A stretch of 64,000 bases of DNA. Origin: Streptomyces sp. NBC_01481 (GTDB lineage Bacteria > Actinomycetota > Actinomycetes > Streptomycetales > Streptomycetaceae). The stretch is taken from contig NZ_JAPEPT010000003.1 in assembly GCF_026339995.1 (NCBI RefSeq), forward strand, positions 620,001-684,000, written 5' to 3'. The notes beneath the pieces were generated by a model, which worked only from the letters and a program-made list of their open reading frames with translations, did not search any database and was not told the DNA's origin. Of the stretch, positions 11,686 to 27,426 are shown one piece after another (position 1 is the first letter of the stretch; each line of letters opens with the position of its first letter). A program made the position numbers and the translations under genes.

Positions 11686-12732
11686 ATGCCAGAAATCCCA
11701 GCCACCAGCCGCAGAGGACTGCTCTTCGGCACTGCCGCCGTCTCCGCCGGTGCGCTGCTGACCGCCTGCACCAGCAATGAGCCCAAGAAGTCGCAGACGG
11801 CAAGCAACAACGTGCCCGCGGCCGACGACAAGCCGGGCAAGGCCGTCACCATCGGCTTCGCCGGACCGCAGGCCGACCACGGCTGGCTCAACGCGATCAA
11901 CGAGAACGCGAAGTCGCGTGCCAAGAAGTACTCCGAAGTAACGCTGGAAATCACCGAGGGCTCCAACGACACCGCCGCCCAGATCGGCCAGGTCCAGACG
12001 CTGATCAACAAGAAGGTCGATGTCCTCGTCATCCTCCCCGCCGACGGCAAGGCCCTCACCCAGGTCGGCCTGCAGGCCATGAAGGCGGGCATCCCCGTCA
12101 TCAACCTGGACCGGATCTTCGCCTCCCCGCAGGCGTACCGCTGCTGGATCGGCGGCGACAACTACGGCATGGGCCTCAACGCCGGGAACTACATCGGCGA
12201 GCAGCTCAAGGACAAGCCGAATGCCAAGGTCATCGAGCTGGCCGGACTCGACAATCTGGAACTCACCAAGCAGCGCACTCAGGGCTTCGACGACGCCTTG
12301 AAGAACTACCCCAACATCAAGAAGGTGGCCCGCCAGGCGGCCGACTTCACCGTCGAGTCCGGCCAGGCGAAGATGGCACAACTCCTCCAGGCCCAGAGCC
12401 AGTTCGATGCGTTGTGGAATCACGACGACGACCAGGGCGTGGGCGCACTGCGGGCCATCGCGCAGGCGGGCCGCAAGGACTTCCTCATGGTCGGGGGCGC
12501 CGGAGCCAAGTCCGCGATGGACGCCATCAAGGCCGACAACAGCGTCCTGAAGGCCACCGTCCTCTATCCGCCGACCATGGCCGCGTCCGCCATCGACCTC
12601 GCCCGCGCGCTCGGCCAGGCCAAGGGCGTCAGCGGAATGTCGGAACTGGAGATCCCCGCTTCGATCACCCTGTACTCCGCCGTCGTGACCAAGGAGAACG
12701 TCGAGGAGTACCTGCCCACGGGGTTCAGCTGA
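11686..12732 (+). CDS. Sugar-binding lipoprotein of the ABC importer
   Basis: A 348-residue periplasmic-binding-protein-like domain (Peripla_BP_4 type) that delivers sugar to the permease. The N-terminus has twin arginines (SRRGLLFG) and a lipobox LLTAC with Cys28, so it is a Tat-exported lipoprotein anchored in the membrane. The mature protein begins VTIGFAGPQADHGWLNAINENAK. ALWNHDDDQGVGALRAI is a typical hinge-side motif of ribose/xylose binders. It is 68 bases downstream of the permease on the same strand. A ribosome site (GAAGG) lies before ATG 11686. Confidence 0.92.
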   Translation: MPEIPATSRRGLLFGTAAVSAGALLTACTSNEPKKSQTASNNVPAADDKPGKAVTIGFAGPQADHGWLNAINENAKSRAKKYSEVTLEITEGSNDTAAQIGQVQTLINKKVDVLVILPADGKALTQVGLQAMKAGIPVINLDRIFASPQAYRCWIGGDNYGMGLNAGNYIGEQLKDKPNAKVIELAGLDNLELTKQRTQGFDDALKNYPNIKKVARQAADFTVESGQAKMAQLLQAQSQFDALWNHDDDQGVGALRAIAQAGRKDFLMVGGAGAKSAMDAIKADNSVLKATVLYPPTMAASAIDLARALGQAKGVSGMSELEIPASITLYSAVVTKENVEEYLPTGFS

Positions 12733-12776
12733 CCGGCCTGCCCGCCCCACCGAGCAACCGACGAGGAGGAACCCGT

Positions 12777-14042
12777 ATGGAACAGAGGGACAGTGAGGCC
12801 GCAACGACAGTCGGTCCGCCGGCCGCCGGTCCGCCGGCGCAGGACCTAGGCGTCGGCATGGTCGGATACGCGTTCATGGGCGCCGCCCACTCGCAGGGGT
12901 GGCGCACCGCCGGACGCGTCTTCGACCTGCCGCTGCGGCCGGTCCTCGCCGCGATCGGCGGCCGTGACGCAGCGGCCGTGCGGGCCGCCGCCGACAGACA
13001 CGGCTGGGCGGCGGCGGAGACCGACTGGCGCCACCTCGTGACCCGCGACGATGTGCAGCTGGTCGACATCTGCACGCCGGGGGACAGCCATGCGGAGATC
13101 GCCGTTGCCGCTCTGGAGGCGGGCAAACACGTCCTGTGCGAGAAGCCGCTGGCCAATTCGGTCGCCGAGGCAGAGGCGATGGTCGCGGCCGCCGAAGCGG
13201 CCAGGGAGCGCGGTCAGTTGGCGATGGTCGGCTTCAACTACCGGCGGGTGCCCGCGATCGCGTACGCCCGCCGGCTGATCGCCGACGGCAGGCTGGGCAC
13301 CCTGCGGCATGTGCGCTTCACCTATCTCCAGGACTGGCTGGTCGACCCGGAGTTCCCCCTCACCTGGCGGCTCCGGCGCGAGCAGGCGGGCTCCGGCGCG
13401 CTCGGCGATCTGGGCGCGCACATCGTGGACCTCGCGCAGTATCTGGCGGGGGAGCCGCTGGTGGGCGTCTCGGCGCTCGCGGAGACCTTCGTACGGGAAC
13501 GCCCGCTGCTCGCGGGGACGTCGGCCGGTCTTTCCGCGGCGGGCGGTCCTTCCGTGACGGGCGGGGCCGAGCGCGGGCCGGTCACCGTGGATGACGCGGC
13601 GGTGTTCACCGGGCGCCTCGCTTCGGGAGCCCTCGCCTCCTTCGAGGCCACCCGGATGGCGTCGGGACGCAAGAACGCCCTGCGACTGGAGATCAACGGC
13701 GAGCTCGGCTCGCTCGCCTTCGACCTGGAGCGGCTGAACGAGCTGTTCTTCCACGACCACACCGAGCCCGCCGCGTCAGCCGGCTTCAAGCGCATCCTGG
13801 TCACCGAGCCCGAGCATCCGTATCTGGCGGCGTGGTGGCCGCCCGGCCACGCGCTCGGCTACGAGCACACCTTCGCCCACCAGGCCCGCGATCTGGTCGA
13901 GGCGATCGCGGCGGGCACCGACCCGGCGCCGTCGTTCGCGGACGGGCTGCAGGTGCAGCGGGTGCTCGCGGCGGCGGAGGAGAGCGCCGGGAAGAACGCC
14001 GTCTACACCCCCGTACCGACATCCGTGCAGACACAGCCCTAG
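12777..14042 (+). CDS. Gfo/Idh/MocA-family sugar or cyclitol dehydrogenase
   Basis: A 421-residue NAD(P)-dependent oxidoreductase. A roughly 25-residue low-complexity N-terminal extension precedes the Rossmann start VGMVGYAFMGAAHS. The catalytic/cofactor signature CEKPLANSVAEAE and the C-terminal GFO_IDH_MocA domain with GALGDLGAHIVDLAQYL are clear. Family members oxidise hydroxyls of inositols, glucosides or sugar acids. The RBS GAGGAGGA lies before ATG 12777. Its place between the binding protein and a sugar isomerase indicates that it acts on the imported compound, possibly producing a keto-sugar. Confidence 0.9.
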   Translation: MEQRDSEAATTVGPPAAGPPAQDLGVGMVGYAFMGAAHSQGWRTAGRVFDLPLRPVLAAIGGRDAAAVRAAADRHGWAAAETDWRHLVTRDDVQLVDICTPGDSHAEIAVAALEAGKHVLCEKPLANSVAEAEAMVAAAEAARERGQLAMVGFNYRRVPAIAYARRLIADGRLGTLRHVRFTYLQDWLVDPEFPLTWRLRREQAGSGALGDLGAHIVDLAQYLAGEPLVGVSALAETFVRERPLLAGTSAGLSAAGGPSVTGGAERGPVTVDDAAVFTGRLASGALASFEATRMASGRKNALRLEINGELGSLAFDLERLNELFFHDHTEPAASAGFKRILVTEPEHPYLAAWWPPGHALGYEHTFAHQARDLVEAIAAGTDPAPSFADGLQVQRVLAAAEESAGKNAVYTPVPTSVQTQP

Positions 14043-14051
14043 GAGGTCCGC

Positions 14052-15056
<1,005 letters not shown>

Positions 15057-15086
15057 CGCTGTAGGGCACATTGCCGCAGCTCCAAG

Positions 15087-15110
15087 CCCGGCGGCGGATC
15101 CGTCGCCGGG
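15087..15110 (+). terminator. Hairpin at the end of the sugar operon
   Basis: CCCGGCG (15087-15093) pairs with CGCCGGG (15104-15110), extended by further partial pairing inside. It lies 30 bases after the isomerase stop. There is no T-run, as usual in high-GC actinomycetes. Confidence 0.5.
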
Positions 15111-15152
15111 CCGGTCCCAGCTGCTCGGGTTCGCCTTTGTCCTGCGGTAGGA

Positions 15153-15167
15153 AGAAGTTGAACTTCT
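15153..15167. promoter_or_regulatory. Perfect 15-bp palindromic operator candidate
   Basis: AGAAGTTGAACTTCT is a perfect odd-centre palindrome, about 170 bases upstream of the 1227-residue exoprotein gene and about 100 bases after the sugar operon. Its AT-rich, symmetrical nature in very GC-rich DNA suggests a binding site for a dimeric repressor, possibly the ROK protein. Confidence 0.5.
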
Positions 15168-15338
15168 CTACTGCACAAGGGCTTTCCGTCCCGGACGAAC
15201 CCGACTACGGTCCATGAGGTGTACAGGACAAAGGTGGTCTCGGTGTGACGGCGCACTCCGGTTCCACGGACAGGCCCGCCCCGCGACCGGGGGCAGGGCA
15301 CAGCCAGCCCGTTCGACCGGCTATCCCGGAGGACATTC

Positions 15339-18300
15339 GTGCACAGGAAACTGCACAGAGCCCGCAAGGCACTCGCACTCCTCACCGGCGGCCTTCTCGC
15401 CGCCGGCTCGCTCGCCCTCACCGCGCCGCAGGCTGCACCCACCGCCGACGCAGCCCCGGCCGCCGAGGAATTCCAGCAGGTCACCCTCGCCAAGGGCGTT
15501 GAGGAGACCGGTGAACCCATGTCGCTGGCGGTCCTTCCCGACCGCAGCGTGCTGCACACCTCCCGCAACGGCGAGCTGAGGATGACCGACAGCGCGGGCA
15601 ACACCCGCGTCGTCGGCACCATCCCCGTCTACTCGCACGACGAGGAAGGCCTCCAAGGCATCGGTCTCGACCCCAAGTTCGGCGAGAACCGCTTCGTCTA
15701 CCTCTACTACGCGCCCCCGCTGAGCACCCCCGCGGGCGATGCCCCCAATGAGGGCACCGCCGAGGACTTCGCGAAGTTCGACGGCGTCAACCGGCTTTCG
15801 CGCTTCGTCCTCAAGGCGGACGGAACCCTCGACAACGCCAGCGAGAAGAAGATCATCGACATTCCCGCGACCCGTGGCATCTGCTGCCACGTCGGCGGCG
15901 ACATCGACTTCGACGCGCAGGGCAACCTCTATCTGTCGACCGGCGACGACTCCAACCCCTTCGCCTCTGACGGATACACCCCGATCGACGAACGCCCGGG
16001 ACGCAATCCCGCGTACGACGCACGCCGTACCTCGGCAAACACCAACGACCTGCGCGGGAAGATCCTGCGGATCAAGGTCAACGACGACGCGAGCTACTCG
16101 ATCCCCGACGGCAACCTCTTCGCGCCGGGGACGGCCAAGACCCGGCCCGAGATCTACGCCATGGGCTTCCGCAATCCCTTCCGGTTCAGCGTCGACAAGA
16201 AGACCGGGATCGTCTACGTCGGCGACTACGGCCCCGACGCGGGCGCGGCCGACCCCAAGCGCGGCCCCGGTGGCCAGGTCGAGTTCGCCCGGATCACCAA
16301 GCCCGGCAACTTCGGCTGGCCCTTCTGCACAGGCAAGAACGACCCATACGTCGACTACGACTTCGCGACGAAGACATCCGGAGCCACCTTCGACTGCGCG
16401 GCCCCCAAGAACGAGTCGCCGTACAACACCGGCCTGGTCGACCTGCCGCCCGCGCAGCCGGCCTGGATTCCCTACGACGGCGGTTCCGTCCCGGAGTTCG
16501 GCACCGGCTCCGAATCCCCGATGGGCGGGCCCGTCTACCGCTACGACGCGGCATCCACGTCCCCGGTGAAGTTCCCCGAGGCGTACGACGGAGACTTCTT
16601 CGCCGGTGAGTTCGGCCGCCGCTGGATCAAGCGGATCAAGCAGGGCGAGGACGGCGCGGTCCAGTCCATCAACCCGCTCCCGTGGACCGGCACCCAGGTC
16701 ATGGACATGGCCTTCGGTCCCGATGGCGCGCTGTACGTACTCGACTACGGCACCGCCTATTTCGGCGGCGACAAGAACTCCGGCCTCTACCGCATCGAGA
16801 ACGCGACCGGCGGACGCTCCCCGGTGGCCGAGGCGGCCGCCACCAAGACGTCGGGCCAGGCACCGCTGCGGGTCGGCTTCTCCTCGGCAGGCACCTCGGA
16901 CGCCGACGGCGACGCGCTCACCTACGCCTGGGACTTCGGCGACGGCGGCACCTCCACCGACGCCAACCCCACGTACACGTACAAGAAGAACGGCAACTAC
17001 ACCGCGACCGTCACCGCCAAGGACCCCGGCGGCCGCACCGGCTCCGCGAGCGTCCATGTCGTGGTCGGCAACACCGCACCCAAGGTGGTCCTGCAACTCC
17101 CCGTCGAGGGCCAGCTGTTCAGCTTCGGCGACGAGATCCCTTTCAAGGTCACGGTCACCGATCCCGAGGACGGGACCATCGACTGCGCGAAGGTCAAGGT
17201 GACGTACGTCCTCGGCCATGACAGCCACGGCCACCCCGTCACCTCGGCCCACGGCTGCACCGGCACCATCAAGACCTCCGCCGATGGCGGACACGACCCC
17301 AACGCCAATATCTTCGGGGTCTTCGACGCCGAGTACACCGACGGCGGTGGCGGCGGCCAGGCCGCGCTCACCAGCCACGACCAGTCGCAGCTCCAGCCCC
17401 GTCACCGGCAGGCCGAGCACTTCACCACCTCCTCGGGCATCAAGCTCTACGACAAGGCCACCGCCCACGGCGGCAAGACGGTCGGCGACATCGACAACGG
17501 CGACTGGATCGCCTTCAAGCCGTACAACCTGACCGGCTCCACCAAGCTCACCGCCCGGATCTCCTCGGGCGGAGCGGGCGGCATCCTGGAGGTGCGCACC
17601 GGATCGGCGAGCGGTCCGCTTCTCGGTTCCGTACCCGTGCCGGTCACCGGCAGCTGGGAGACCTTCCAGGACGTCGACATCCCGCTGCGGGCCGTACCGA
17701 GGAAGACCACCGAACTGTTCCTGGCCTTCAAGGGCGGACAGGGAGCGCTGTACGACGTGGACGACTTCGAGCTCTCCAACACGCCCGTCGACCGGACCGC
17801 CAAGCGAGTCCTGGTCTTCTCCAAGACCGCCGGCTTCCGCCACGACTCCATCCCGACGGGCATCGCGGCTCTCAAAGAACTCGGCGCCAGCAGCAACATC
17901 ACGGTCGACGCCACCGAGGAGGCGGCCCAGTTCACCACCAGCAACCTCGCCCGCTACGACGTCGTGGTGTTCCTGTCGACCACGGGGGATGTCCTGGGCG
18001 CCGACCAGCAGAAGGCGTTCGAGAACTATGTCGCCGCAGGCGGCGGCTACATGGGCGTGCACGCCGCGGCCGACACCGAGTACGACTGGGCCTTCTACGG
18101 CGGGCTCGTCGGCGCGTACTTCCAGTCGCACCCGCAGATCCAGCCCGCGACCGTGCGGGTCGAGGACCACACCCATCCCTCGACCAGCCATCTCGACGAC
18201 GCCTGGGAGCGCACCGACGAGTGGTACAACTACCGCACCAACCCCCGTGCACAGGCACGGATCCTCGCCACCCTCGACGAAACCACCTACCAGGGCGGCA

Positions 18301-19022
18301 CCATGAAGGGCGACCACCCGATCGCCTGGTGCCAGACCTACGAGGGCGGCCGCGCCTTCTACACCGGAGGCGGCCACACCAAGGAGTCGTACGCCGAACC
18401 GGCCTTCCGACAGCACCTGCTCGGCGGACTGCGCTACGCCACGGGACAGGTCGCGGCCGACTGCAGGCCGAAGACCGGATACCGGCCGATCTTCAACGGC
18501 AGGACCCTGGACGGCTGGAAGCAGGCGGGGCCCGGAAAGTTCACTGTCGTCGACGGTGAACTGCGCACCGAGGGCGGCATGGGCATGCTCTCGTACCAGG
18601 CCAAGGAGCTGAAGTCCTACTCGCTCAAGCTCGACTGGAAGCTGGACGGCGACGACAATTCCGGAGTCTTCGTGGGCTTCCCGGCCTCCGACGACCCCTG
18701 GTCGGCGGTGAACAACGGCTACGAGGTGCAGATCGACGCGACCGACGCACCCGACCGCACGACAGGCGCCGTCTACGGCTTCAAGTCGGCAGACCTCGCG
18801 GCTCGCGACCGTGTCCTGCGACCGCCCGGCCAGTGGAACAGCTACGAACTCCGGGTGCAGGGGGAGCGGCTGCAGGTCTTCCTCAACGGTGTGAAGATCA
18901 ACGACTTCATCAACACCGACCCGGCGCGCAGCCTCAAGGAAGGCTATATCGGCCTCCAGAATCATGGCGCCGACGATCAGGTGTCCTTCCGCGACATCCA
19001 ACTCAGGGAGCTGCCCTCATAG
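15339..19022 (+). CDS. Secreted multidomain carbohydrate protein: sorbosone/glucose dehydrogenase-PKD-CBM6-ThuA-DUF1080
   Basis: A 1227-residue exoprotein. A Sec signal peptide (RKALALLTGGLLAAGSLALTAPQ) is followed by a PQQ-type glucose/sorbosone dehydrogenase beta-propeller (about 45-490; DEEGLQGIGLDPKF, AMGFRNPFRF, GNFGWPFC). A PKD domain comes next (about 491-575; YAWDFGDGGTS), then a short Ig-like stretch and a CBM6-like domain (about 689-812; DNGDWIAFKPYNL). A ThuA glutamine-amidotransferase-like domain (about 817-1035; FSKTAGFRHDSIP, GGGYMGVHAAADTEY) leads to a DUF1080 3-keto-glycoside hydrolase/lyase domain (1045-1227; FNGRTLDGW, EVQIDATD). GTG 15339 is preceded by CGGAGGA. The domains are those of keto-sugar chemistry: oxidation, binding and cleavage. 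It fits the adjacent importer, dehydrogenase and isomerases. It ends 15 bases before a strong terminator. Confidence 0.92.
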   Translation: MHRKLHRARKALALLTGGLLAAGSLALTAPQAAPTADAAPAAEEFQQVTLAKGVEETGEPMSLAVLPDRSVLHTSRNGELRMTDSAGNTRVVGTIPVYSHDEEGLQGIGLDPKFGENRFVYLYYAPPLSTPAGDAPNEGTAEDFAKFDGVNRLSRFVLKADGTLDNASEKKIIDIPATRGICCHVGGDIDFDAQGNLYLSTGDDSNPFASDGYTPIDERPGRNPAYDARRTSANTNDLRGKILRIKVNDDASYSIPDGNLFAPGTAKTRPEIYAMGFRNPFRFSVDKKTGIVYVGDYGPDAGAADPKRGPGGQVEFARITKPGNFGWPFCTGKNDPYVDYDFATKTSGATFDCAAPKNESPYNTGLVDLPPAQPAWIPYDGGSVPEFGTGSESPMGGPVYRYDAASTSPVKFPEAYDGDFFAGEFGRRWIKRIKQGEDGAVQSINPLPWTGTQVMDMAFGPDGALYVLDYGTAYFGGDKNSGLYRIENATGGRSPVAEAAATKTSGQAPLRVGFSSAGTSDADGDALTYAWDFGDGGTSTDANPTYTYKKNGNYTATVTAKDPGGRTGSASVHVVVGNTAPKVVLQLPVEGQLFSFGDEIPFKVTVTDPEDGTIDCAKVKVTYVLGHDSHGHPVTSAHGCTGTIKTSADGGHDPNANIFGVFDAEYTDGGGGGQAALTSHDQSQLQPRHRQAEHFTTSSGIKLYDKATAHGGKTVGDIDNGDWIAFKPYNLTGSTKLTARISSGGAGGILEVRTGSASGPLLGSVPVPVTGSWETFQDVDIPLRAVPRKTTELFLAFKGGQGALYDVDDFELSNTPVDRTAKRVLVFSKTAGFRHDSIPTGIAALKELGASSNITVDATEEAAQFTTSNLARYDVVVFLSTTGDVLGADQQKAFENYVAAGGGYMGVHAAADTEYDWAFYGGLVGAYFQSHPQIQPATVRVEDHTHPSTSHLDDAWERTDEWYNYRTNPRAQARILATLDETTYQGGTMKGDHPIAWCQTYEGGRAFYTGGGHTKESYAEPAFRQHLLGGLRYATGQVAADCRPKTGYRPIFNGRTLDGWKQAGPGKFTVVDGELRTEGGMGMLSYQAKELKSYSLKLDWKLDGDDNSGVFVGFPASDDPWSAVNNGYEVQIDATDAPDRTTGAVYGFKSADLAARDRVLRPPGQWNSYELRVQGERLQVFLNGVKINDFINTDPARSLKEGYIGLQNHGADDQVSFRDIQLRELPS

Positions 19023-19036
19023 GCGTCCCCCGAGAC

Positions 19037-19076
19037 GACGGCGGGCGGGGAGGCGCCGTACCCCCCGCCCGCCGTC
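19037..19076 (+). terminator. Strong GC hairpin terminator
   Basis: A perfect 14-bp stem, GACGGCGGGCGGGG (19037-19050) with CCCCGCCCGCCGTC (19063-19076), and a 12-base loop. It separates the exoprotein gene from the Ebo-type operon, which suggests that the latter has its own control or is expressed by read-through. Confidence 0.7.
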
Positions 19077-19107
19077 CCCACCACACCGAGAGGCAGGGAG
19101 GCAGCCC

Positions 19108-20235
19108 GTGACGAACGGGAATGACCGCACGACACGCACCGGAGTCTGGTTCGTGGGAGCGCGTGGTTCCGTGGCCACCACGGCCGTCGCGGGGTGCGCG
19201 GCGATCGCTGCCGGACTGCATCCCCCGAACGGCATGGTCACGGAAACCAGGCCGTTCGCCGGATCGGGGCTGCCTCCCCTGTCGTCGCTGGTCTTCGGCG
19301 GCCACGACATCGCGCACGGCCCGCTGCCCAAGCGGGCCGAGGCGCTTGCGGCCGGGGGAGTGCTGCCGCACGGGCTGACCGCTGCCGTACGAGGTGAACT
19401 GGCCGCCGCCGACGCGGAGATACGCCCCGGTGGGCCACAGTCCGGCGACGCGCGGACCGACGAGGAACTGATCGCCGCCTTCGCCTCGGACATGAGCGAC
19501 TTCCGGGACCGGCACGGGCTCGCCCGCGTCGTCGTCGTCAATGTCTCTTCCACCGAGCCGGTGCCCGAGCCCGACGCTGTACGTCTGCCGCCCAGCTCGA
19601 TCTACGCTGCCGCGGCGCTGCGGGCAGGGTGCCCCTTCGTCAACTTCACCCCCTCCACCGGGCTGCGCACCGCGGCCCTCACCGACGCCGCCGCGGCACG
19701 TGGACTTCCCCACGCGGGCCGTGACGGCAAGACGGGCCAGACGCTGCTCCGTTCCGTGCTCGCCCCGATGTTCGTGCAGCGCGCCCTGACGGTACGGGCG
19801 TGGTCGGGCACCAACCTGCTGGGCGGCGGGGACGGAGCGGCGCTGGCCGATCCGGGCGCGGCGGCCGCGAAGAACGCGGGCAAGGAGCGGGTTCTCAGCG
19901 ACACCCTGGGCATCGTGCCCGAAGGCGAGGTCCATATCGACGACGTCCCGGCGCTCGGCGAGTGGAAGACGGCCTGGGATCACATCGCGTTCGAGGGTTT
20001 CCTCGGCTCGCGGATGATCCTCCAGACGATCTGGCAGGGCTGCGACTCGGCGCTCGCGGCCCCCTTGGTTCTGGATCTGGCACGGCTGGTGGCCCGCGCG
20101 CATGAGGTGGGCCTGGCGGGCCCGCTGCCGGAACTGGGCTTCTACTTCAAGGATCCGGACGGCGGTTCGGCGGCGCTGGGGGAGCAGTTCGAGGCGCTGC
20201 TTTCCTTCGCCGACCGGCTGCGGGAGGCGCGATGA
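19108..20235 (+). CDS. Inositol-3-phosphate synthase homologue at the head of the Ebo-type operon
   Basis: Myo-inositol-phosphate synthases cyclise glucose-6-phosphate in an NAD-dependent reaction. The 375-residue protein begins with a Rossmann motif (VWFVGARGSVATTAVAGCAAI). It contains the catalytic-domain stretch RAWSGTNLLGGGDGAALADP and, near the C-terminus, GSRMILQTIWQGCDSALAAPLVLDLARLV, matching the SLLAAPIILDL region of the family. A lysine in GEWKTAWDH corresponds to the region of active-site lysines. GTG 19108 follows GGCAGGGAGG. It overlaps the prenyltransferase gene in ATGA. The housekeeping enzyme is normally elsewhere and about 360 residues with a different N-terminus, so this is a specialised paralogue, likely supplying a cyclitol phosphate to the operon. 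Confidence 0.82.
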   Translation: MTNGNDRTTRTGVWFVGARGSVATTAVAGCAAIAAGLHPPNGMVTETRPFAGSGLPPLSSLVFGGHDIAHGPLPKRAEALAAGGVLPHGLTAAVRGELAAADAEIRPGGPQSGDARTDEELIAAFASDMSDFRDRHGLARVVVVNVSSTEPVPEPDAVRLPPSSIYAAAALRAGCPFVNFTPSTGLRTAALTDAAAARGLPHAGRDGKTGQTLLRSVLAPMFVQRALTVRAWSGTNLLGGGDGAALADPGAAAAKNAGKERVLSDTLGIVPEGEVHIDDVPALGEWKTAWDHIAFEGFLGSRMILQTIWQGCDSALAAPLVLDLARLVARAHEVGLAGPLPELGFYFKDPDGGSAALGEQFEALLSFADRLREAR

Positions 20236-21389
20236 CCTGGCGGGCCTGGGCGGAACTGCTGCGGGTGTCGGCGCTGTTCACGGTGCCGGGGGATGCGCTG
20301 GCGGGAGCGGCGGCGGTGGGGCTGCGACCCAATGGCCGGACCCTGCTGGCCGTCGGCAGCTCGCTGTGTCTGTACGAGGCGGGCATGGCGCTGAACGACT
20401 GGGCGGACCGGGAGGTGGACGCGGTGGAGCGCCCGCACCGGCCGATTCCGTCGGGGCGCCTCAGCGCCGGGGCTGCGCTGGGGGCGGCGGGTGCGCTGAC
20501 TGGCGCGGGCCTGGTGCTGGCTTCCCGCGCGGGCCGCCCGGCTCTGGCGGTGGCGTCGGCGTTGTCGGTGACCGTCTGGTCGTACGACCTCTACTTCAAG
20601 CACACGGCGGGTGGCCCGGCGGCGATGGCGGCGGCGCGGGGGCTGGATCTGGTGCTGGGCGCGGTCGCGACGGGATCGGGCGCGGCCCGGCTCGGCGACG
20701 CTCGCGAGGCGGGGGTCCCCGGCGCGTCGTGGGGCGCGTTCGCCGCGGGCGGCGGCCGGCCGGGGATTCTCGCCGCGGTGCCGTCCGCCGCCGTGCTGAG
20801 CGCCCACACATATGCGGTGACATCGGTGTCCCGTCACGAGGCGCAGGGAGGATCAACTGCGGTGCCGCTTGCGGCGCTCACGGCGACCATCGGGCTGGGC
20901 GCCCTCGCGACGAGAGGCGCGTGGGGTGGCGGGGTCCATGCCGTGCCGGAGGTACCAGACCCCGCGCCGCGAAGCAGGCGCGGTCGGGGGCGGGGGCTGC
21001 CCCGACTGTCCCTCCCGCCCCGGGGGTCTGGGGGCTTGCCCCCCACGCGGCGGAGCCGCACATCGACACAGCCGGGAAGGGGCGGGTCAGGGGAGAGCTT
21101 CAAGCGGTCACCGCGACCGCCCGCACCCCGGGCCCCGCTCACCCCGGCCCACCTCGCCACCACCGCGTTCGCCGCCGCCTACATCCGTACCGCCGCCAAG
21201 CCCCTCCTGCACGCCGCCCTCAACCCCTCCCCGCCCCTCACCCAGCGGGCCGTCGGTGGTGGCATCCGGGCCATGATCCCACTGCAGGCGACCCTCGCCG
21301 CCCGCACCGGCGCCGGTGCCACGGCCCTCGCGGTGATGGCACTGGTCCCGCTCGCCCGCAAGTTCGCACGGAAGGTCAGCGTCACATGA
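20232..21389 (+). CDS. eboC: UbiA-type prenyltransferase (EboC-like), with inserted repeat
   Basis: An integral membrane prenyltransferase of 385 residues. The first aspartate-rich motif is NDWADREVDAVERPHRPIPSG (NDxxDxxxD), and a second region is YDLYFKHTAGGP. UbiA enzymes attach a prenyl chain to an acceptor within the membrane. Between about residues 235 and 300 the protein contains an odd Pro/Arg/Gly-rich, non-membrane stretch (VPEVPDPAPRSRRGRGRG...). It is encoded by a GC palindrome also found in intergenic DNA at 6680; after it the normal sequence resumes (AAYIRTAAKPLLHAALNPSPP). The frame is kept. The gene overlaps both neighbours by 4 bases, so it is certainly cotranscribed. Confidence 0.85.
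   Translation: MTWRAWAELLRVSALFTVPGDALAGAAAVGLRPNGRTLLAVGSSLCLYEAGMALNDWADREVDAVERPHRPIPSGRLSAGAALGAAGALTGAGLVLASRAGRPALAVASALSVTVWSYDLYFKHTAGGPAAMAAARGLDLVLGAVATGSGAARLGDAREAGVPGASWGAFAAGGGRPGILAAVPSAAVLSAHTYAVTSVSRHEAQGGSTAVPLAALTATIGLGALATRGAWGGGVHAVPEVPDPAPRSRRGRGRGLPRLSLPPRGSGGLPPTRRSRTSTQPGRGGSGESFKRSPRPPAPRAPLTPAHLATTAFAAAYIRTAAKPLLHAALNPSPPLTQRAVGGGIRAMIPLQATLAARTGAGATALAVMALVPLARKFARKVSVT
21022..21043. repeat. Dispersed 22-bp palindromic repeat inside the prenyltransferase gene
   Basis: Identical over 22 bases to 6680-6701 (string beginning GGGGGTCTGG and ending GGCTTGCCCCC). It is embedded in a larger stretch, about 20940-21125, whose translation is alien to a membrane protein. The same string is intergenic in its other copy here. 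Confidence 0.75.
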
Positions 21390-22255
21390 ACCCCGCCCCC
21401 ATCCGCCTCGGCTACGGCACCAACGGGCTCACCGATCTCCGCCTCGGCGACGCCCTCGCCCTCCTCGCGGACCTCGGCTACGACGGCGTCGGTCTCACCC
21501 TCGACCATATGCACCTGGACCCGCTCGCCCCGAACCTGGCCTCCCGCACCAGCCAAGTGGCCGCCACATTGGGCAAGTTAGGACTGGGCGTCACCGTCGA
21601 GACCGGCGCCCGCTACGTCCTCGACCCCCGCCGCAAACACGGCCCCTCCCTCCTCGACCCGGACCCCGACGGCCGTGCGGCCCGTACCGCCCTGCTCACC
21701 ACCGCCGTGCAGGTCGCCGCCGACCTCGGCGCCCACGCCGTGCACTGTTTCAGCGGCATCACCCCCGCCGACACCACGCCCGACACGGCCTGGAAGCGGC
21801 TCGAAGAGTCATTCACCCCCGTCCTGGAGGCGGCCGCCGACGCCGACGTCCCCCTTGCCATCGAGCCCGAACCCGGACACCTCCTCGCCACCCTCGCCGA
21901 CTTCCACCGCCTCCGCGGCATCCTCGGCGACCCCGAACCTCTCGGTCTCACCCTCGACATCGGCCACTGCCAGTGCCTCGAACCGGCCCCGCCCGCCGAC
22001 TGCGTGCGCGACGCCGCCCCCTGGCTGCGCCATGTCCAAATCGAGGACATGCGCCGCGGCGTCCATGAACACCTCCCCTTCGGAGACGGGGAGATCGACT
22101 TCCCGCCTGTACTCGAAGCCCTCGCCGCCACCGGCCACCAGGGCCTGACCGTCGTCGAACTGCCCCGCCACTCGCACGCGGGACCCGAACTCGCCCGCGC
22201 CTCGATCGAGTTCCTCCGCTCGCAGGCCCCACTGAAGGGAGCACCGACATCGTGA
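21386..22255 (+). CDS. Sugar phosphate isomerase/epimerase TIM-barrel protein of the Ebo-type operon
   Basis: A 289-residue AP-endonuclease-2-like TIM barrel. Conserved elements are LGYGTNGLTDL at the start, LAIEPEPGHLL and LGLTLDIGHCQCL with metal-ligand Glu/Asp/His, HVQIEDMRRGVHEHLPFGDGEIDF and a terminal ELPRHSH. The FGDGEID motif is typical of hydroxypyruvate isomerase/inosose-type members. The ATG overlaps the upstream stop (ATGA) and its own stop overlaps the eboA GTG (GTGA). The substrate is unknown; by position it would act on the cyclitol or sugar derivative handled by the operon. Confidence 0.85.
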   Translation: MNPAPIRLGYGTNGLTDLRLGDALALLADLGYDGVGLTLDHMHLDPLAPNLASRTSQVAATLGKLGLGVTVETGARYVLDPRRKHGPSLLDPDPDGRAARTALLTTAVQVAADLGAHAVHCFSGITPADTTPDTAWKRLEESFTPVLEAAADADVPLAIEPEPGHLLATLADFHRLRGILGDPEPLGLTLDIGHCQCLEPAPPADCVRDAAPWLRHVQIEDMRRGVHEHLPFGDGEIDFPPVLEALAATGHQGLTVVELPRHSHAGPELARASIEFLRSQAPLKGAPTS

Positions 22256-22914
22256 CGCCGACCCACAAGGAACTCGACCGGCAGCTCCCCGACGACGCAC
22301 GCGCCTGGCTCGACGAAGCACTTGCCGAGGCCGCCGAAGCCGAGGCCGCACGTCCCGCCGCCGGGGCCGCGCGTCCCGGCGCCGAGACGCCTCCGGCCGA
22401 GCCGTCCCCGTACGCCGTACCCCTCTGGGAGCTCCGTTTCGCCTCAGCAGGCCGGGCCTGTGGCCAGCACTACGCCGACTCCGTACGCACCCTGCTCCTC
22501 GTCGAGGCCCGCGCCGACAGCGCCACCCTCACCCGCCTCTATCAGCAGGGCACCGCCGCCGAGCGTCGTGCCGTGCTCCTCGCCCTGCACCAACTCCTCG
22601 AAGGGCCCGTCGCCCTTCCGCTCGTCGAGGACGCGCTGCGTACCAACGACACGCGGCTGGTCGCCGCCGCGGTGGGCCCGTACGCCGCCGAGCACCTCGA
22701 TCCGCACGCCTGGCGGCACGCCGTCCTCAAGTGCCTGTTCACCGGTGTGCCCGTCGATGCCGTCGCCGACTTGGACAGCCGGGCCGCGGGCGACGACGAG
22801 CTGGCCAGGATGCTCGCCGACTACGCCGCCGAGCGCACCGCCGCCGGCCGCGCAGTGCCCCCCGACCTCAACCACGTGCTGACCCTGACCGGCGAGCAGT
22901 CCGAGGAGTTCTGA
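22252..22914 (+). CDS. eboA: EboA domain protein
   Basis: A 220-residue soluble, mostly helical, Ala/Leu-rich protein without known catalytic motif. Its assignment rests on the family-like stretches LLVEARADSATLTRLYQQGTAAERRAVLLAL and DALRTNDTRLVAAAVGPYAAEHL, and on its exact place before the TatD and EboE genes, as in known ebo clusters. In cyanobacteria the ebo genes are needed to move the scytonemin monomer to the periplasm; the biochemical role of EboA is not known. GTG start, overlapping both neighbours (GTGA upstream, TGATG downstream). Confidence 0.8.
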   Translation: MTPTHKELDRQLPDDARAWLDEALAEAAEAEAARPAAGAARPGAETPPAEPSPYAVPLWELRFASAGRACGQHYADSVRTLLLVEARADSATLTRLYQQGTAAERRAVLLALHQLLEGPVALPLVEDALRTNDTRLVAAAVGPYAAEHLDPHAWRHAVLKCLFTGVPVDAVADLDSRAAGDDELARMLADYAAERTAAGRAVPPDLNHVLTLTGEQSEEF

Positions 22915-23762
22915 TGCGTATCTTCGACCCCCATATCCATATGACCTCCCGTACCACCGACGACTATCAGGCGATGTACGACGCGGGTGTGCGTGCGGTG
23001 GTCGAACCGTCCTTCTGGCTGGGCCAGCCCCGCACCTCGCCCGCCAGCTTCTTCGACTACTTCGACGCCCTGCTCGGCTGGGAGCCGTTCCGCGCATCCC
23101 AGTACGGCATCGCCCACCACTGCACGATCGCCCTCAACCCCAAGGAAGCGAACGACCCCCGCTGCACTCCCGTCCTCGACGCGCTGCCCCGTTATCTCGT
23201 CAAGGACTCCGTCGTCGCCGTCGGCGAGATCGGCTACGACTCCATGACCCCCGCCGAAGACGCCGCACTCGCCGCCCAGCTCCAGCTCGCCGCCGAGCAC
23301 GGCCTGCCCGCCCTCGTCCACACCCCGCACCGCGACAAGCTCGCGGGCCTCCACCGCACGGTCGACGTCATCCGCGAATCCGCGCTGCCCACGGACCGCG
23401 TGCTGCTCGACCACCTCAATGAGACGACCGTAAAGCACGCCACTGACAGCGGCTGCTGGCTGGGCTTCTCCATCTACCCGGACACCAAGATGGACGAGGA
23501 CCGGATGGTCGCGATCCTCAAGACATACGGAACCGAGAAGGTGCTGGTCAACTCGGCCGCCGACTGGGGCAAGAGCGACCCGCTCAAGACCCGCAGGGTC
23601 GGCGACGCGATGCTCGCCGCAGGCTTCACGGAAGACGACGTGGACCAGGTCCTGTGGCGTAACCCCGTCGCGTTCTACGGCCTCAGCGGCCGCCCCCAGC
23701 TCGACATCCCCGAACCGGAGTCCCTCCACGAGGGCAACTCCATCCTCCGCGGCGGGGAATGA
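22914..23762 (+). CDS. eboB: TatD-family metal-dependent hydrolase (EboB-like)
   Basis: A 282-residue TIM-barrel hydrolase. The N-terminal MRIFDPHIHMTSRTTDDY has the HxH metal pair. VGEIGYDSM supplies the glutamate ligand, LVHTPHRDK a histidine, LLDHLNE another and VNSAADWGKSDP the aspartate, giving a complete TatD-type metal site. TatD relatives act on nucleic acids or small phosphorylated or amide compounds; in ebo clusters the substrate is unknown. It overlaps eboA by TGATG; EboE follows after 12 bases. Confidence 0.88.
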   Translation: MRIFDPHIHMTSRTTDDYQAMYDAGVRAVVEPSFWLGQPRTSPASFFDYFDALLGWEPFRASQYGIAHHCTIALNPKEANDPRCTPVLDALPRYLVKDSVVAVGEIGYDSMTPAEDAALAAQLQLAAEHGLPALVHTPHRDKLAGLHRTVDVIRESALPTDRVLLDHLNETTVKHATDSGCWLGFSIYPDTKMDEDRMVAILKTYGTEKVLVNSAADWGKSDPLKTRRVGDAMLAAGFTEDDVDQVLWRNPVAFYGLSGRPQLDIPEPESLHEGNSILRGGE

Positions 23763-23774
23763 GGAGGCCGACGC

Positions 23775-24944
23775 ATGCGCTTCCGCCACCCCGACGGCAC
23801 CACCGTCCACCTCTCCTACTGCACCAACGTCCACCCCGCGGAGACCCTCGACGGCGTCATCGCCCAACTGCGCGACCACTGCGAGCCGGTACGCAAACGC
23901 CTCGGCCGCGACCGCCTCGGGATCGGCCTGTGGCTCGCCAAAGACGCGGCCGGCGCCCTGGTCGGCGACCCGGCGGCGCTGCGGGGACTGGCTGCCGAGC
24001 TCGACCGCCGCGGCCTGGAAGTCGTCACCCTCAACGGCTTTCCCTATGAAGGGTTCGGCGCCGAGGAGGTCAAGTACCGGGTCTACAAGCCGGACTGGGC
24101 CGATCCCGAACGGCTCGCCCACACCACCGACCTGGCCCGCCTCCTCGCCTCCCTCCTTCCCGAAGATGTCACCGAGGGCAGCATCTCCACCCTGCCGCTG
24201 GCCTGGCGTACCCCCTTCGGCGACACGGCGGCCGGGGCCGCGCACACCGCACTGGTCACCCTCGCCGAGCGCCTGGACGCCTTGGAGGAGCTGACCGGGA
24301 AGTCGATACGCATCGGTCTGGAGCCGGAGCCCGGCTGCATCGTCGAGACCACCGCGGACGCGATACGTCCCCTGGCCGCGATCGCCTCCCGCCGCATCGG
24401 CATCTGCATCGACACCTGCCATCTCGCAACCTCCTTCGAAGATCCACAGACTGCCCTGGCCGCACTCACCGCGGCGGGCATCGCCATCCCCAAAGCGCAG
24501 CTGTCCGCCGCGCTGCATGCCGAAGAACCCCACCTTCCCGAAGTACGGGCGGCGTTGGCCGCCTTCGCCGAACCGCGTTTCCTGCACCAGACCCGCACCC
24601 GCACCGCCGCAGGTCTGCGTGGCACGGACGACCTGGACGAAGCCCTCGCCGGCCAGACGCTGCCCGAGGCCGCCCCCTGGCGCGCTCACTTCCATGTCCC
24701 CCTGCACGCCCGGCCCGCTCTTCCGCTCACCTCCACCCTCCCGGTGCTCCGGGACACGCTGACCCTGCTGGTCGGCGGCCCGGTCCCGCTGACCCGGCAC
24801 CTCGAGGTCGAGACCTACACCTGGCAGGCGCTGCCTCCCGAGCTGCGCCCGCGCAACCGCACCCAGCTCGCCGACGGCATCGCCGCCGAACTCGCTCTTG
24901 CCCGTGATCTGTTGACCGACCTCGGACTCAAGGAGCTGCCGTGA
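23775..24944 (+). CDS. eboE: EboE: xylose-isomerase-like metabolite traffic protein
   Basis: A 389-residue TIM-barrel protein. It begins MRFRHPDGTTVHLSYCTNVHPAETLDGV, a hallmark start of proteins called metabolite traffic protein EboE. Metal-ligand-type motifs are IGLEPEPGCIVE, RIGICIDTCHLATSFE and HFHVPLHA. The C-terminal HLEVETYTWQALP is also characteristic. GGAGG precedes the ATG, and the stop overlaps the EboF GTG. Together with EboA, B, C and F it defines the operon. Confidence 0.88.
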   Translation: MRFRHPDGTTVHLSYCTNVHPAETLDGVIAQLRDHCEPVRKRLGRDRLGIGLWLAKDAAGALVGDPAALRGLAAELDRRGLEVVTLNGFPYEGFGAEEVKYRVYKPDWADPERLAHTTDLARLLASLLPEDVTEGSISTLPLAWRTPFGDTAAGAAHTALVTLAERLDALEELTGKSIRIGLEPEPGCIVETTADAIRPLAAIASRRIGICIDTCHLATSFEDPQTALAALTAAGIAIPKAQLSAALHAEEPHLPEVRAALAAFAEPRFLHQTRTRTAAGLRGTDDLDEALAGQTLPEAAPWRAHFHVPLHARPALPLTSTLPVLRDTLTLLVGGPVPLTRHLEVETYTWQALPPELRPRNRTQLADGIAAELALARDLLTDLGLKELP

Positions 24945-26335
24945 CCGTCGCCGAACAGCCAGCGCCCACCCCCCTTCTCGTCCTGGACGTCGTCGGTCTC
25001 ACCCCCCAGCTGCTGGCCCACATGCCCCACCTCCAAGCCCTCGCAGACAAGGGATCGAGCGCCCCCCTCTCCACCGTGCTGCCCGCCGTCACCTGCGCCG
25101 CCCAGTCGACCTTCCTCACCGGCGCACTGCCGGCCGAGCACGGCATCGTCGGCAACGGCTGGTACTTCCGCGAGCTCGGCGAGGTGCTGCTGTGGCGCCA
25201 GCACAACGGCCTGGTCGGCGGCGACAAACTCTGGGACGCCGCCCGCCGCACCCACCCCGGCTACACCGTCGCCAACATCTGCTGGTGGTACGCCATGGGC
25301 GCCGACACCGACTTCACCGTCACCCCCCGCCCCGTCTACTACGCCGACGGTCGCAAAGAACCCGACTGCTACACCCGGCCCCCGGCCCTCCACGACGAAC
25401 TCACCGGCACACTCGGCACCTTCCCCCTCTTCCACTTCTGGGGTCCCGGCGCCGACTTGGTCTCCAGTCAGTGGATCATCGACGCCACCCGGCACATCAT
25501 GCGCACCCGCCACCCCGACCTGACCCTGTGCTACCTCCCCCACCTCGACTACGACCTGCAGCGCTTCGGACCGGACGACCCCCGCTCCCACCAGGCCGCC
25601 ACCGACCTCGATGCCGCCCTCGCCCCCCTCCTCAACGACGCCCAGCAGGAGGGCCGCACGGTCGTCGCGCTGTCCGAGTACGGCATCACCCCCGTCAGCC
25701 GTCCCGTCGACATCAACCGCGCGCTGCGCCGCGCGGGCCTCCTCGAGGTCCACACCCAGGACGGCATGGAATACCTCGACCCGATGACCTCCCGCGCCTT
25801 CGCCGTGGCCGATCACCAGCTCGCCCACATCTACGTCCGCTGTCCCGAAGACCTCGACGCCGCCCGCCAAGCCCTCGCGGACCTGCCCGGCATCGAGCAA
25901 CTTCTCGACGACGAGGGCAAGAAGACCCACGGCCTGGACCATCCCCGCTCCGGCGAACTCGTCGCCGTCGCCGAGCCGGATGCCTGGTTCACGTACTACT
26001 ACTGGCTCGACGACACCCGCGCCCCCGACTTCGCACAGCTCGTCGAGATCCACCGCAAACCCGGCTACGACCCGGCCGAGCTGTTCATGGACCCGCTCGA
26101 CCCCTACGTACGCGTCAAGGCCGCGAAGGCGATCGCCCGCAAGAAGCTCGGCATGCGCTACCGCCTCGCGGTCGTACCCCTGGACCCCTCACCTATTCGC
26201 GGCAGCCATGGCCGCCTCCCCACGAGCGACGACGAAGGTCCGCTCATTGTGTGCTCCACCCCCCGCGCTGTAAGCGGCCGCGTGAAAGCGACCGAAGTGA
26301 AGTCCCTGCTGCTTCACCTCGCTGGATTCCACTGA
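24941..26335 (+). CDS. eboF: EboF: nucleotide pyrophosphatase/phosphodiesterase-family protein
   Basis: A 464-residue alkaline-phosphatase-superfamily enzyme. The N-terminal strand LLVLDVVGLTPQLL carries the first metal aspartate. The nucleophile region PAVTCAAQSTFLTGALPAEHGI has the Thr used by nucleotide pyrophosphatase/phosphodiesterases. Later LPHLDYDLQRFGPDD and DHQLAHIYV give further metal ligands. There is no signal peptide, so it acts in the cytoplasm, cleaving a phosphodiester or pyrophosphate. GTG 24941 overlaps eboE (GTGA). The last strictly overlapping member of the operon; the next gene starts 47 bases later. Confidence 0.88.
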   Translation: MTVAEQPAPTPLLVLDVVGLTPQLLAHMPHLQALADKGSSAPLSTVLPAVTCAAQSTFLTGALPAEHGIVGNGWYFRELGEVLLWRQHNGLVGGDKLWDAARRTHPGYTVANICWWYAMGADTDFTVTPRPVYYADGRKEPDCYTRPPALHDELTGTLGTFPLFHFWGPGADLVSSQWIIDATRHIMRTRHPDLTLCYLPHLDYDLQRFGPDDPRSHQAATDLDAALAPLLNDAQQEGRTVVALSEYGITPVSRPVDINRALRRAGLLEVHTQDGMEYLDPMTSRAFAVADHQLAHIYVRCPEDLDAARQALADLPGIEQLLDDEGKKTHGLDHPRSGELVAVAEPDAWFTYYYWLDDTRAPDFAQLVEIHRKPGYDPAELFMDPLDPYVRVKAAKAIARKKLGMRYRLAVVPLDPSPIRGSHGRLPTSDDEGPLIVCSTPRAVSGRVKATEVKSLLLHLAGFH

Positions 26336-26382: not shown

Positions 26383-27426
26383 ATGAGCCGCTCCACCACG
26401 AACAGCGACCCCGAACTCGCTCACAGGCTCAGCAGACGCGGCATGCTCGGCGTCGCCGCCGGTGCGACCGCCGCCGCCCTCATCGGCGCCGCCGCGGGCC
26501 CGGCCGCCGCCGCCCCGACGACGACAACCGCCGCCCCCGCCCGGGGCCGCCCCGTTCTTCCCCCCGGCCGCCTCGGCACCCAGCTCTACTCTCTCCGCGA
26601 CAAGGTCTCCACGCTCGGCTTCGCACCGGTCTTTGCCGAGCTCGAGCGCTACGGTTACGACGAGATCGAGTTCGCCGGGTACACCCAGGGCTCCGCGGGC
26701 CCCATCACGCTCGCCCAGTTGAAGCAGCTCGCCTGTGACCACGGCCTGAACCCCATCGGCAGCCACGTCGGCTACTACTCGAGCGACCCGTACGCTTACA
26801 CCTTCGCGCAGAACCTGACCCAGGTCCTCGACGACGCCCAGGCCCTCGGCCTCAAGCACATAGGCACCGCCTCGGGCCCCTTCCGCTACGGCGCCACCGT
26901 CGACGCCTGGAAGCGGGCGGCCGAGGAGTTCAACAGCTATGGAGCCGCGGCCCGTGCCCGCGGCATGAAGTTCTACCAGCACAACCACGCGGAGGAGTTC
27001 TCCTTCGCCACCGACCAGCCGAACGTCCGCCTCTATGACGTTCTGCTCGCCGAGACCGACCCCGAACTGGTCCATCTTGAGATGGACATCTACTGGGCCT
27101 ATGTGGGCCAGTTCCGCTTCAGCAAGCGCGTCGACGGCACGCCCGCGCCCTTCGACCCCCTGCGCTATGTGCTGAAGCAGCCTCACCGCTACCCGCTCTT
27201 CCATGTCAAGGACGGCGTCCACGACGAAGCCGCCCGCGACGGCTACCGGATGGTGGACGTCGGGGACGGCGACATCGACTACAAGCGCTTCATTTCTTCG
27301 GTGAACCAGACCCCGGGCGGCTACCGCGAGCACCACTGGCAGACCGAACACGACAACCCCGTCGAGTCGTTCGCGTTCGCCCGCAAGTCCAGCGAGCACC
27401 TCCACTCGCTCCGCGAGAACTGCTAG
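26383..27426 (+). CDS. Tat-exported sugar isomerase/epimerase-like protein
   Basis: A 347-residue AP-endonuclease-2-like TIM barrel with a Tat signal (LSRRGMLGVAAGATAAALIGAAAG). After it come GTQLYSLRDKVSTLGFAPVFAELERYGYDEIEF, FYQHNHAEEF, VHLEMDIYWAYVG and PLFHVKDGVHD, the motifs of secreted isomerase-like proteins that recent work links to 3-keto-glycoside cleavage. AAGGAG precedes ATG 26383. It follows eboF by 47 bases and may be cotranscribed. It is the third isomerase-type protein in 12 kb and the only exported one, so it probably works with the DUF1080/sorbosone-dehydrogenase exoprotein outside the cell. Confidence 0.87.
   Translation: MSRSTTNSDPELAHRLSRRGMLGVAAGATAAALIGAAAGPAAAAPTTTTAAPARGRPVLPPGRLGTQLYSLRDKVSTLGFAPVFAELERYGYDEIEFAGYTQGSAGPITLAQLKQLACDHGLNPIGSHVGYYSSDPYAYTFAQNLTQVLDDAQALGLKHIGTASGPFRYGATVDAWKRAAEEFNSYGAAARARGMKFYQHNHAEEFSFATDQPNVRLYDVLLAETDPELVHLEMDIYWAYVGQFRFSKRVDGTPAPFDPLRYVLKQPHRYPLFHVKDGVHDEAARDGYRMVDVGDGDIDYKRFISSVNQTPGGYREHHWQTEHDNPVESFAFARKSSEHLHSLRENC

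Follow-up and report, generated by a model that had tools for sequence, protein, structure and literature searches.

In the genome of Streptomyces sp. NBC_01481 (7.7 Mb), a stretch of 64,000 nucleotides (contig NZ_JAPEPT010000003.1, positions 620,001 to 684,000; hereafter the window) carries an ebo-type operon of seven genes at window positions 19108-26335 of the + strand. In this operon, EboD, the sugar-phosphate cyclase of the 3-dehydroquinate synthase (DHQS) type found in other ebo operons, is absent, and a homologue of inositol-phosphate synthase (INO1) and a TIM-barrel protein (TIM) are present instead. The genomic comparisons below show that INO1 and TIM form a two-gene cassette that stands in for EboD, the two being mutually exclusive in the loci examined. 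The replacement is common to nearly all the actinobacterial ebo operons that we sampled and is not peculiar to this strain.

The ebo operon was named by Yurchenko et al. in 2016 (PMC5133447), who placed EboD near the sedoheptulose-phosphate cyclases, proposed from it an isoprenoid-cyclitol product, and reported the operon from several bacterial phyla and even some algal plastids. The paper also mentions loci without eboD and, in Actinobacteria, an EboA fused to a xylose-isomerase-like region; the word "inositol" is absent from its main text. In Nostoc, ebo mutants retain the scytonemin monomer in the cytoplasm, showing a role of the operon in metabolite export (2018 mBio paper, PMC6282210). 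Relative to the ABCDEF and EboG types described in PMC5133447, the window operon shares a cluster of EboA (or EboG), a TatD-type EboB, a UbiA-type EboC, EboE and EboF, and differs by the lack of EboD, by INO1 and TIM in its stead, and by the gene order INO1-EboC-TIM-EboA-EboB-EboE-EboF. In the open-licence literature of PubMed Central (PMC), no description of an ebo operon of the INO1 type turned up.

Cyclase types across ebo loci

We annotated the surroundings of EboE genes with profiles built in this analysis and classified 128 loci. The 119 that have three or more core ebo genes were counted, and the nine with fewer were excluded. These 119 loci were fetched rather than sampled at random, and they cover Actinomycetota and plasmid records. 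From the phylum sample they include the loci of the 19 matching genomes (in full for 18, as a shorter contig piece for the nineteenth), from the genus sample those of 11 of the 44 matching genomes, picked for high scores and second copies, and from the class sample those of all 62 non-Streptomyces genomes over the cut-off plus four places below it, the Streptomyces loci of that sample being omitted unless already collected. Additional loci came from plasmid records and from genomes with a lone INO1 gene (see below). The lone-INO1 loci themselves, the paralogue loci and 80 loci from named genomes are excluded from the count. Loci and genomes are designated L and G where they must be told apart.

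INO1 scored above 300 bits in 90 of the 119 loci, EboD was present in 10, an INO1 fragment in three, and neither cyclase in 16 (four of which end at a contig edge); no locus had both. TIM accompanied INO1 in 87 of the 90 INO1-type loci and occurred in none of the 10 EboD-type ones, and the gene order of the window was kept in 83 of the 90. An earlier note on this DNA, made from the sequence alone, had proposed that the cyclase was replaced and that the extra TIM barrel belonged to the replacement. Both proposals agree with these counts, and a DHQS-type EboD retained beside the synthase, which the note had named as the observation to look for against it, occurs in none of the 119 loci. In the phylum sample, EboE was over its cut-off in 18 of 396 genomes, 17 with an INO1-type locus and one (G381) with an EboD-type locus, while G128 has an INO1-type locus and a second locus without cyclase. 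Searching named genomes gave 327 relatives of INO1, the best 80 of which are nearly all from Streptomyces. Among these 80, 65 loci extend for at least 6.5 kb downstream of INO1 (the other 15 end too early): all six other genes follow in 54, none or only remnants in 11. As a separate observation, the INO1 gene L184:11480-12628 (G691) is followed directly by EboA, EboB and EboE, and no EboC, TIM or EboF was recognised there.

At the level of genomes, the co-occurrence of ebo-type INO1 with EboE is near-perfect in our samples, in statistics that ignore the relatedness of the genomes. EboE exceeded its cut-off in 90 of the 394 genomes of the class sample, eight more below the cut-off being counted as negative. 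INO1 above 500 bits was present in 84 of these 90 and in none of the 304 others, four of which gave weaker matches (192-336 bits). The six exceptions are G477, which has an ebo operon without INO1 in place and a 344-bit paralogue in the genome, and G486, G510, G595, G672 and G711, where no further ebo gene was recognised near EboE. Homologues of EboE at five loci (L187, L215, L218, L229 and L230) scored 359-419 bits, over the NF035939 cut-off (three were rechecked), with no other ebo gene recognised within 18 kb. In the genus sample of 61 genomes, 43 matched both EboE and INO1, 17 matched neither, and G408 matched EboE only; among the 43, EboE is only a fragment in G403 (39.7 bits) and INO1 only a fragment in G444 (56 bits), and INO1 is partial or split in G396, G411 and G448.

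We found EboD neither in the window operon nor elsewhere in its genome, and we therefore file the operon as a variant and not as a canonical ebo operon. Matches to PF01761 in this genome were limited to the true AroB (TIGR01357, 355.8 bits) and one sub-threshold match of 21.6 bits. The EboD model NF004852 was over its cut-off of 333 in none of the 394 class genomes, the one studied here included (best score 219.6). On this model, EboD proteins from two named plasmids and one distant actinobacterium scored 545-572 bits, the positive control G381 reaching 563.7 bits. Across the phylum, none of 276 genomes matched at E 1e-90, a result to be taken with caution, with G381 as its positive control.

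Probable mobility of the cyclase cassette

In Gemmatirosa kalamazoonensis (Gemmatimonadota), a plasmid locus (L152) carries INO1 (474 bits) and TIM together with EboB, EboC, EboE and EboF. No EboA was found in this locus, which has a protein resembling the small Deinococcus protein taken as EboG (E 2.7e-17). Its EboB groups with those of the EboD-bearing Deinococcus and G381 loci with a support of 100, and its EboF and EboE fall among those of EboD-type loci in the trees. Placing the INO1-type loci in a single clade was rejected for EboB (p 2.8e-7), marginally rejected for EboF (p 0.034, with one long branch) and unrejected for EboE (p 0.365). These tests used 31 loci (30 for EboF), grouped by cyclase type and chosen from 60 after seeing the trees. 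Each cyclase type (EboD or INO1 with TIM) is thus seen with each of the two small proteins (EboA and EboG), and at least one move of the cyclase cassette is most likely. Because the EboG-type operon of Gemmatimonadota also has INO1 and TIM, the swap probably happened more than once, as far as these sequences tell, which is clear for EboB and not for EboE.

The INO1-type cyclase and its TIM-barrel partner

The gene in EboD's place (19108..20235, + strand) starts with GTG and encodes a protein of 375 aa. It contains both Pfam domains of the family, PF07994 (122 bits, cut-off 25) and PF01658 (97.7 bits, cut-off 27). For the profile searches, it was tested as the longer open reading frame 18964-20235, and EboB likewise as 22731-23762. 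The closest solved structure is the archaeal INO1 of A. fulgidus (1u1i, 196 bits), to which the window protein is homologous over most of its length; the two differ in context, the window gene sitting in an ebo operon. Positions aligned with the catalytic lysines K274, K278, K306 and K367 and with N255 of A. fulgidus INO1 are invariant in 28 sequences, which include that of the window and are 46-83% identical to it. There are PDB entries altered at three of the aligned positions, which fits a catalytic role. By this alignment, the ebo INO1 retains its catalytic residues. It is not the mycothiol INO1 (TIGR03450, 25.3 bits, below the cut-off of 638); the housekeeping enzyme of that type is encoded elsewhere in the genome (725.6 bits on the same model) and has 27% identity to the window protein over about 200 residues. 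A more distant relative than the archaeal enzyme is Ari2 (6k96, 39.9 bits), the synthase of a five-membered cyclitol phosphate in aristeromycin biosynthesis. Ari2 is a precedent in that secondary metabolism has already recruited an INO1 homologue for a different cyclitol (PMC11348189). In the INO1 tree, the housekeeping enzyme forms a very long branch; no root was placed by it, and the paralogues L261-L264 were kept apart. These paralogues (336-364 bits) have a TIM gene within the same 16 kb and no recognised ebo gene, and in L261 the pair is accompanied by Gfo/Idh, YcaO and glycosyltransferase genes. Such a pair in loci without ebo genes fits a step shared by INO1 and TIM.

TIM (21386..22255, + strand, 289 aa), the second half of the cassette, belongs to the ketose-3-epimerase or xylose-isomerase-like class (PF01261, 145.6 bits, cut-off 31.1). 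No named equivalog of the ketose-3-epimerase class exceeded its NCBIfam cut-off (best 43.2 bits against 353). The AlphaFold2 model (mean predicted local distance difference test, pLDDT, 86.6) gave as best Foldseek matches SCO6571 (E 4.6e-17) and ketose 3-epimerases (E 4.6e-15 and weaker), and its predicted fold is thus that of the ketose 3-epimerase class. Among 21 close sequences, the residues E160, D191, H216 and E258 do not vary; such residues bind the metal in this class. TIM could act on a keto-cyclitol.

Lone INO1 genes and operons without INO1

Eleven loci (10 from Streptomyces, one from Wenjunlia) carry an INO1 gene whose downstream ebo genes are missing, some retaining short remnants of eboF, TIM or eboC. 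All 11 genes are intact, with a median ratio of non-synonymous to synonymous polymorphism (pN/pS) of 0.22 versus 0.28 in 11 operon copies; by this measure, all of them are under purifying selection. At first sight, these loci seem to speak against a link between INO1 and ebo; 10 of the 11 genomes, though, have EboE over its cut-off. In four genomes, no full INO1 besides the lone gene was seen in the loci fetched: G816 has an ebo operon with an INO1 fragment only (L236), G814 and G815 have one fragment-bearing locus each (L246 and L243) and one without INO1 (L232 and L235), and G810 has an ebo locus without INO1 (L233). Such reciprocal decay points to a single pathway in which INO1 and the remaining ebo genes act even where they lie apart. 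Six other genomes (G811, G812, G813, G818, G819 and G820) have at least one ebo operon with its own full INO1.

Four INO1-less Streptomyces operons (L117, L137, L139 and L142) have upstream genes for a gamma-glutamyltranspeptidase, a protein of the inositol-monophosphatase family and an FAD oxidoreductase. Only the last two of this run are found upstream of L234, and other genes lie upstream of EboC in L231, L232, L233 and L235. The phosphatase family was assigned by a Pfam run on L139 alone (PF00459, 195 bits), L117, L137, L142 and L234 being judged by their near-identical sequences; the best NCBIfam match is a histidinol-phosphatase model, at 125.8 bits under its cut-off of 275. The gene hints at inositol, although the family is broad. 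We recognised no third cyclase upstream of EboC among the open reading frames listed for these operons, a search in which two upstream genes of L231, L232, L233 and L235 were run through Pfam. L142, with its inositol-monophosphatase-like upstream gene, is the ebo operon of G408, in whose genome no ebo-type INO1 was found.

The other genes of the operon

All seven open reading frames translate without internal stops. They run in one direction with five overlaps of 1-4 bases and a gap of 12 bases between EboB and EboE, as the earlier note had described. Its assignment of the operon to ebo was upheld by curated profiles, which match EboE, the EboA domain, an SCO3242-type EboC, a TatD-type EboB and EboF. 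In the profile search that it had called for, EboA and EboE exceeded the cut-offs of their Ebo families, and EboC fell under its Ebo equivalog and over that of the SCO3242 family.

EboC (20232..21389, + strand, 385 aa), a UbiA prenyltransferase with an NDxxDxxxD motif, scores 375.8 bits on the SCO3242 prenyltransferase model NF045897 (cut-off 260), a separate family already named by the NCBI annotators. It does not reach the EboC equivalog NF035940 (122.5 bits versus a cut-off of 250), and the EboC of the EboD-type locus L120 is likewise under this cut-off (96.3 bits). The next-best profiles include geranylgeranylglycerol-phosphate geranylgeranyltransferase. At 385 aa, the protein exceeds the SCO3242 model (287 positions) by nearly 100 residues. 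In S. coelicolor, SCO3242 (a putative transferase) and SCO3243 (a myo-inositol phosphate synthase) are listed within the calcium-dependent-antibiotic (CDA) cluster in PMC3610822. Judging from these names and from the SCO3242 family model, the same operon probably begins there with these two genes.

EboA (22252..22914, + strand, 220 aa) matches the domain NF035938 with 164.8 bits (cut-off 50). EboB (22914..23762, + strand, 282 aa) is a metal-dependent hydrolase of the TatD family (PF01026, 48.4 bits, cut-off 27); the NCBIfam matches include no EboB-specific model, and its position and order are conserved. EboE (23775..24944, + strand, 389 aa) reaches 429.9 bits on NF035939 (cut-off 250), and EboF (24941..26335, + strand, 464 aa), a type I phosphodiesterase/nucleotide pyrophosphatase, 232.4 bits on PF01663 (cut-off 23).

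A prenylated cyclitol as the proposed product

Taken as a whole, we consider it fairly likely that this is an actinobacterial type of ebo operon in which the INO1-TIM cassette serves in place of EboD. The mechanism on its own, from a cyclitol phosphate to a prenylated cyclitol, is a more tentative proposal, to which we give somewhat less than even chances. INO1 would catalyse the NAD-dependent oxidation, the cyclisation and perhaps the re-reduction of a sugar phosphate, yielding an inositol- or inosose-type cyclitol phosphate (inosose phosphate if the last reduction were lost), and TIM would epimerise or isomerise a keto form. In the membrane, a prenyl chain would then be attached to the cyclitol by EboC, which is related to enzymes that build a prenyl ether onto a phosphorylated polyol. 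The prenylated cyclitol may be trimmed or rearranged by EboF, EboB and EboE, and EboA may hold the complex together. The membrane-bound product could serve metabolite traffic or the protection of the envelope, as ebo does in the export of the scytonemin monomer in Nostoc. In the BE-40644 pathway, as cited in PMC5133447, an EEVS cyclase and a UbiA-type prenyltransferase likewise form a cyclitol that is then prenylated, with the difference that this cyclase is of the DHQS type.

The idea of a prenyl-cyclitol is not new, having been put in print in general form for EboD in 2016. The swap supports it; both a prenyl-linked cyclitol as the product and the cleavage of a phosphodiester of it by EboF, as the earlier note had it, stay proposals. 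The comparisons add to the earlier note a cyclase swap that is lineage-wide in our samples, its form as a two-gene cassette and, probably, its having moved more than once. That unrelated cyclases were swapped and the rest of the operon was kept, probably repeatedly, is an independent argument that forming a ring from a sugar phosphate is what ebo needs. A requirement for a ring would make the product of the ebo cluster easier to hunt. Moreover, INO1 is an enzyme with a well-understood mechanism, which gives a handle on this product in Streptomyces, where knock-outs and lipid analysis are routine, and the SCO3242/SCO3243 operon, if it is the same, puts the system in a model strain.

Several observations weigh against this reading. 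Three INO1-type loci have no TIM, and both cyclases are missing from 12 loci that lie away from contig ends. For nine of these 12, the genome has an ebo-type INO1 at another place, and for two (G279 and G477) it has only a paralogue of 339-344 bits. The last is in G408, a Streptomyces whose genome holds an ebo operon but nothing that matches the ebo INO1 profile. The EboE test left a single clade of INO1-type loci standing. In the six genomes listed above that have a lone INO1 beside a complete operon, the lone copy is not the sole source of INO1, and this part of the lone-gene evidence is neutral. The AlphaFold2 model of INO1 was left unused (pLDDT 60.8, below 50 for residues 199-312). Finally, the genome has a housekeeping INO1, so that inositol phosphate alone would need no second enzyme, and Bacteroidota relatives of EboC farnesylate 8-hydroxyquinoline-2-carboxylic acid in vitro, as reported in PMC9235831.

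The presence of the housekeeping enzyme bears directly on an alternative that we find rather doubtful, namely that the second INO1 makes ordinary 1L-myo-inositol 1-phosphate and the ebo enzymes use myo-inositol or an inosose derived from it. EboD-type operons would then make another cyclitol, and core enzymes tolerant of the head group would give two different products. INO1 is nearest, among solved structures, to the archaeal myo-inositol phosphate synthase and keeps the catalytic residues; one type of INO1-less Streptomyces operon is headed by the inositol-monophosphatase-family gene, and G408 has such an operon without ebo INO1, as if fed by the housekeeping enzyme. However, that phosphatase family is broad, as the sub-threshold histidinol-phosphatase match illustrates, a supply of inositol phosphate already exists in the genome, and the tie of TIM to INO1 would be left unexplained.

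At the other extreme, EboD and the INO1-TIM cassette might be non-homologous and yet isofunctional, so that a single universal prenyl-cyclitol carrier would receive the same cyclitol from either, which we regard as improbable. In its boldest form, the ebo INO1 would act on sedoheptulose 7-phosphate and join C7 to C2, with TIM correcting the stereochemistry, and would thereby give the same C7 ring skeleton as the DHQS-type heptulose cyclases. The analogy is with Ari2, which uses a ketose phosphate. If this were true, the cyclase would be an exchangeable module.

It is also conceivable, at a still lower probability, that EboC acts on an aromatic acid, the cyclase making its precursor or a separate head group, and that there is no cyclitol-lipid pathway. 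Here the replacement itself speaks against it: an inositol-type cyclase has taken the place of EboD, and such a cyclase is not known to lead to aromatic rings. In favour of this reading, Ubi-297, a flavobacterial EboC homologue encoded in an ebo cluster as in the window, farnesylated 6 of 14 aromatic acceptors, quinolines best, though the panel assayed in vitro was aromatic (PMC9235831). The cluster of Ubi-297 is described with EboD. The word "inositol" is absent from that paper.

That the operon belongs with neighbouring keto-sugar genes in a local sugar catabolism, INO1 being there by neighbourhood, is disfavoured and very improbable: a Gfo/Idh oxidoreductase, a TIM-barrel protein, a ThuA/3-keto-disaccharide hydrolase protein and a second TIM do flank the operon, and many named Streptomyces loci continue with a TIM like the second. 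However, a good number of INO1-type loci from other families show no homologue of this second TIM (the only flanking gene surveyed), the neighbours of plasmid-borne operons are different, and INO1 goes with EboE from genome to genome.

Neighbouring genes

Just upstream of the operon, positions 12414-19022 of the window encode the Gfo/Idh oxidoreductase, the TIM-barrel protein and a multidomain protein of 1227 aa, with glucose/sorbosone dehydrogenase, PKD, CBM6, ThuA and 3-keto-disaccharide hydrolase domains. A further PF01261 TIM-barrel protein lies after it (26437-27426); its homologues, which are 68-87% or about 35% identical to it, also follow the operon in many of the named Streptomyces loci. 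On a plasmid of Streptomyces sp. NBC_00028, a protein annotated as ScyD/ScyE family (L155:2026-3225) is encoded directly upstream of an INO1-type ebo operon and a multicopper oxidase domain protein downstream of it, an arrangement that echoes the cyanobacterial scytonemin-ebo neighbourhood.

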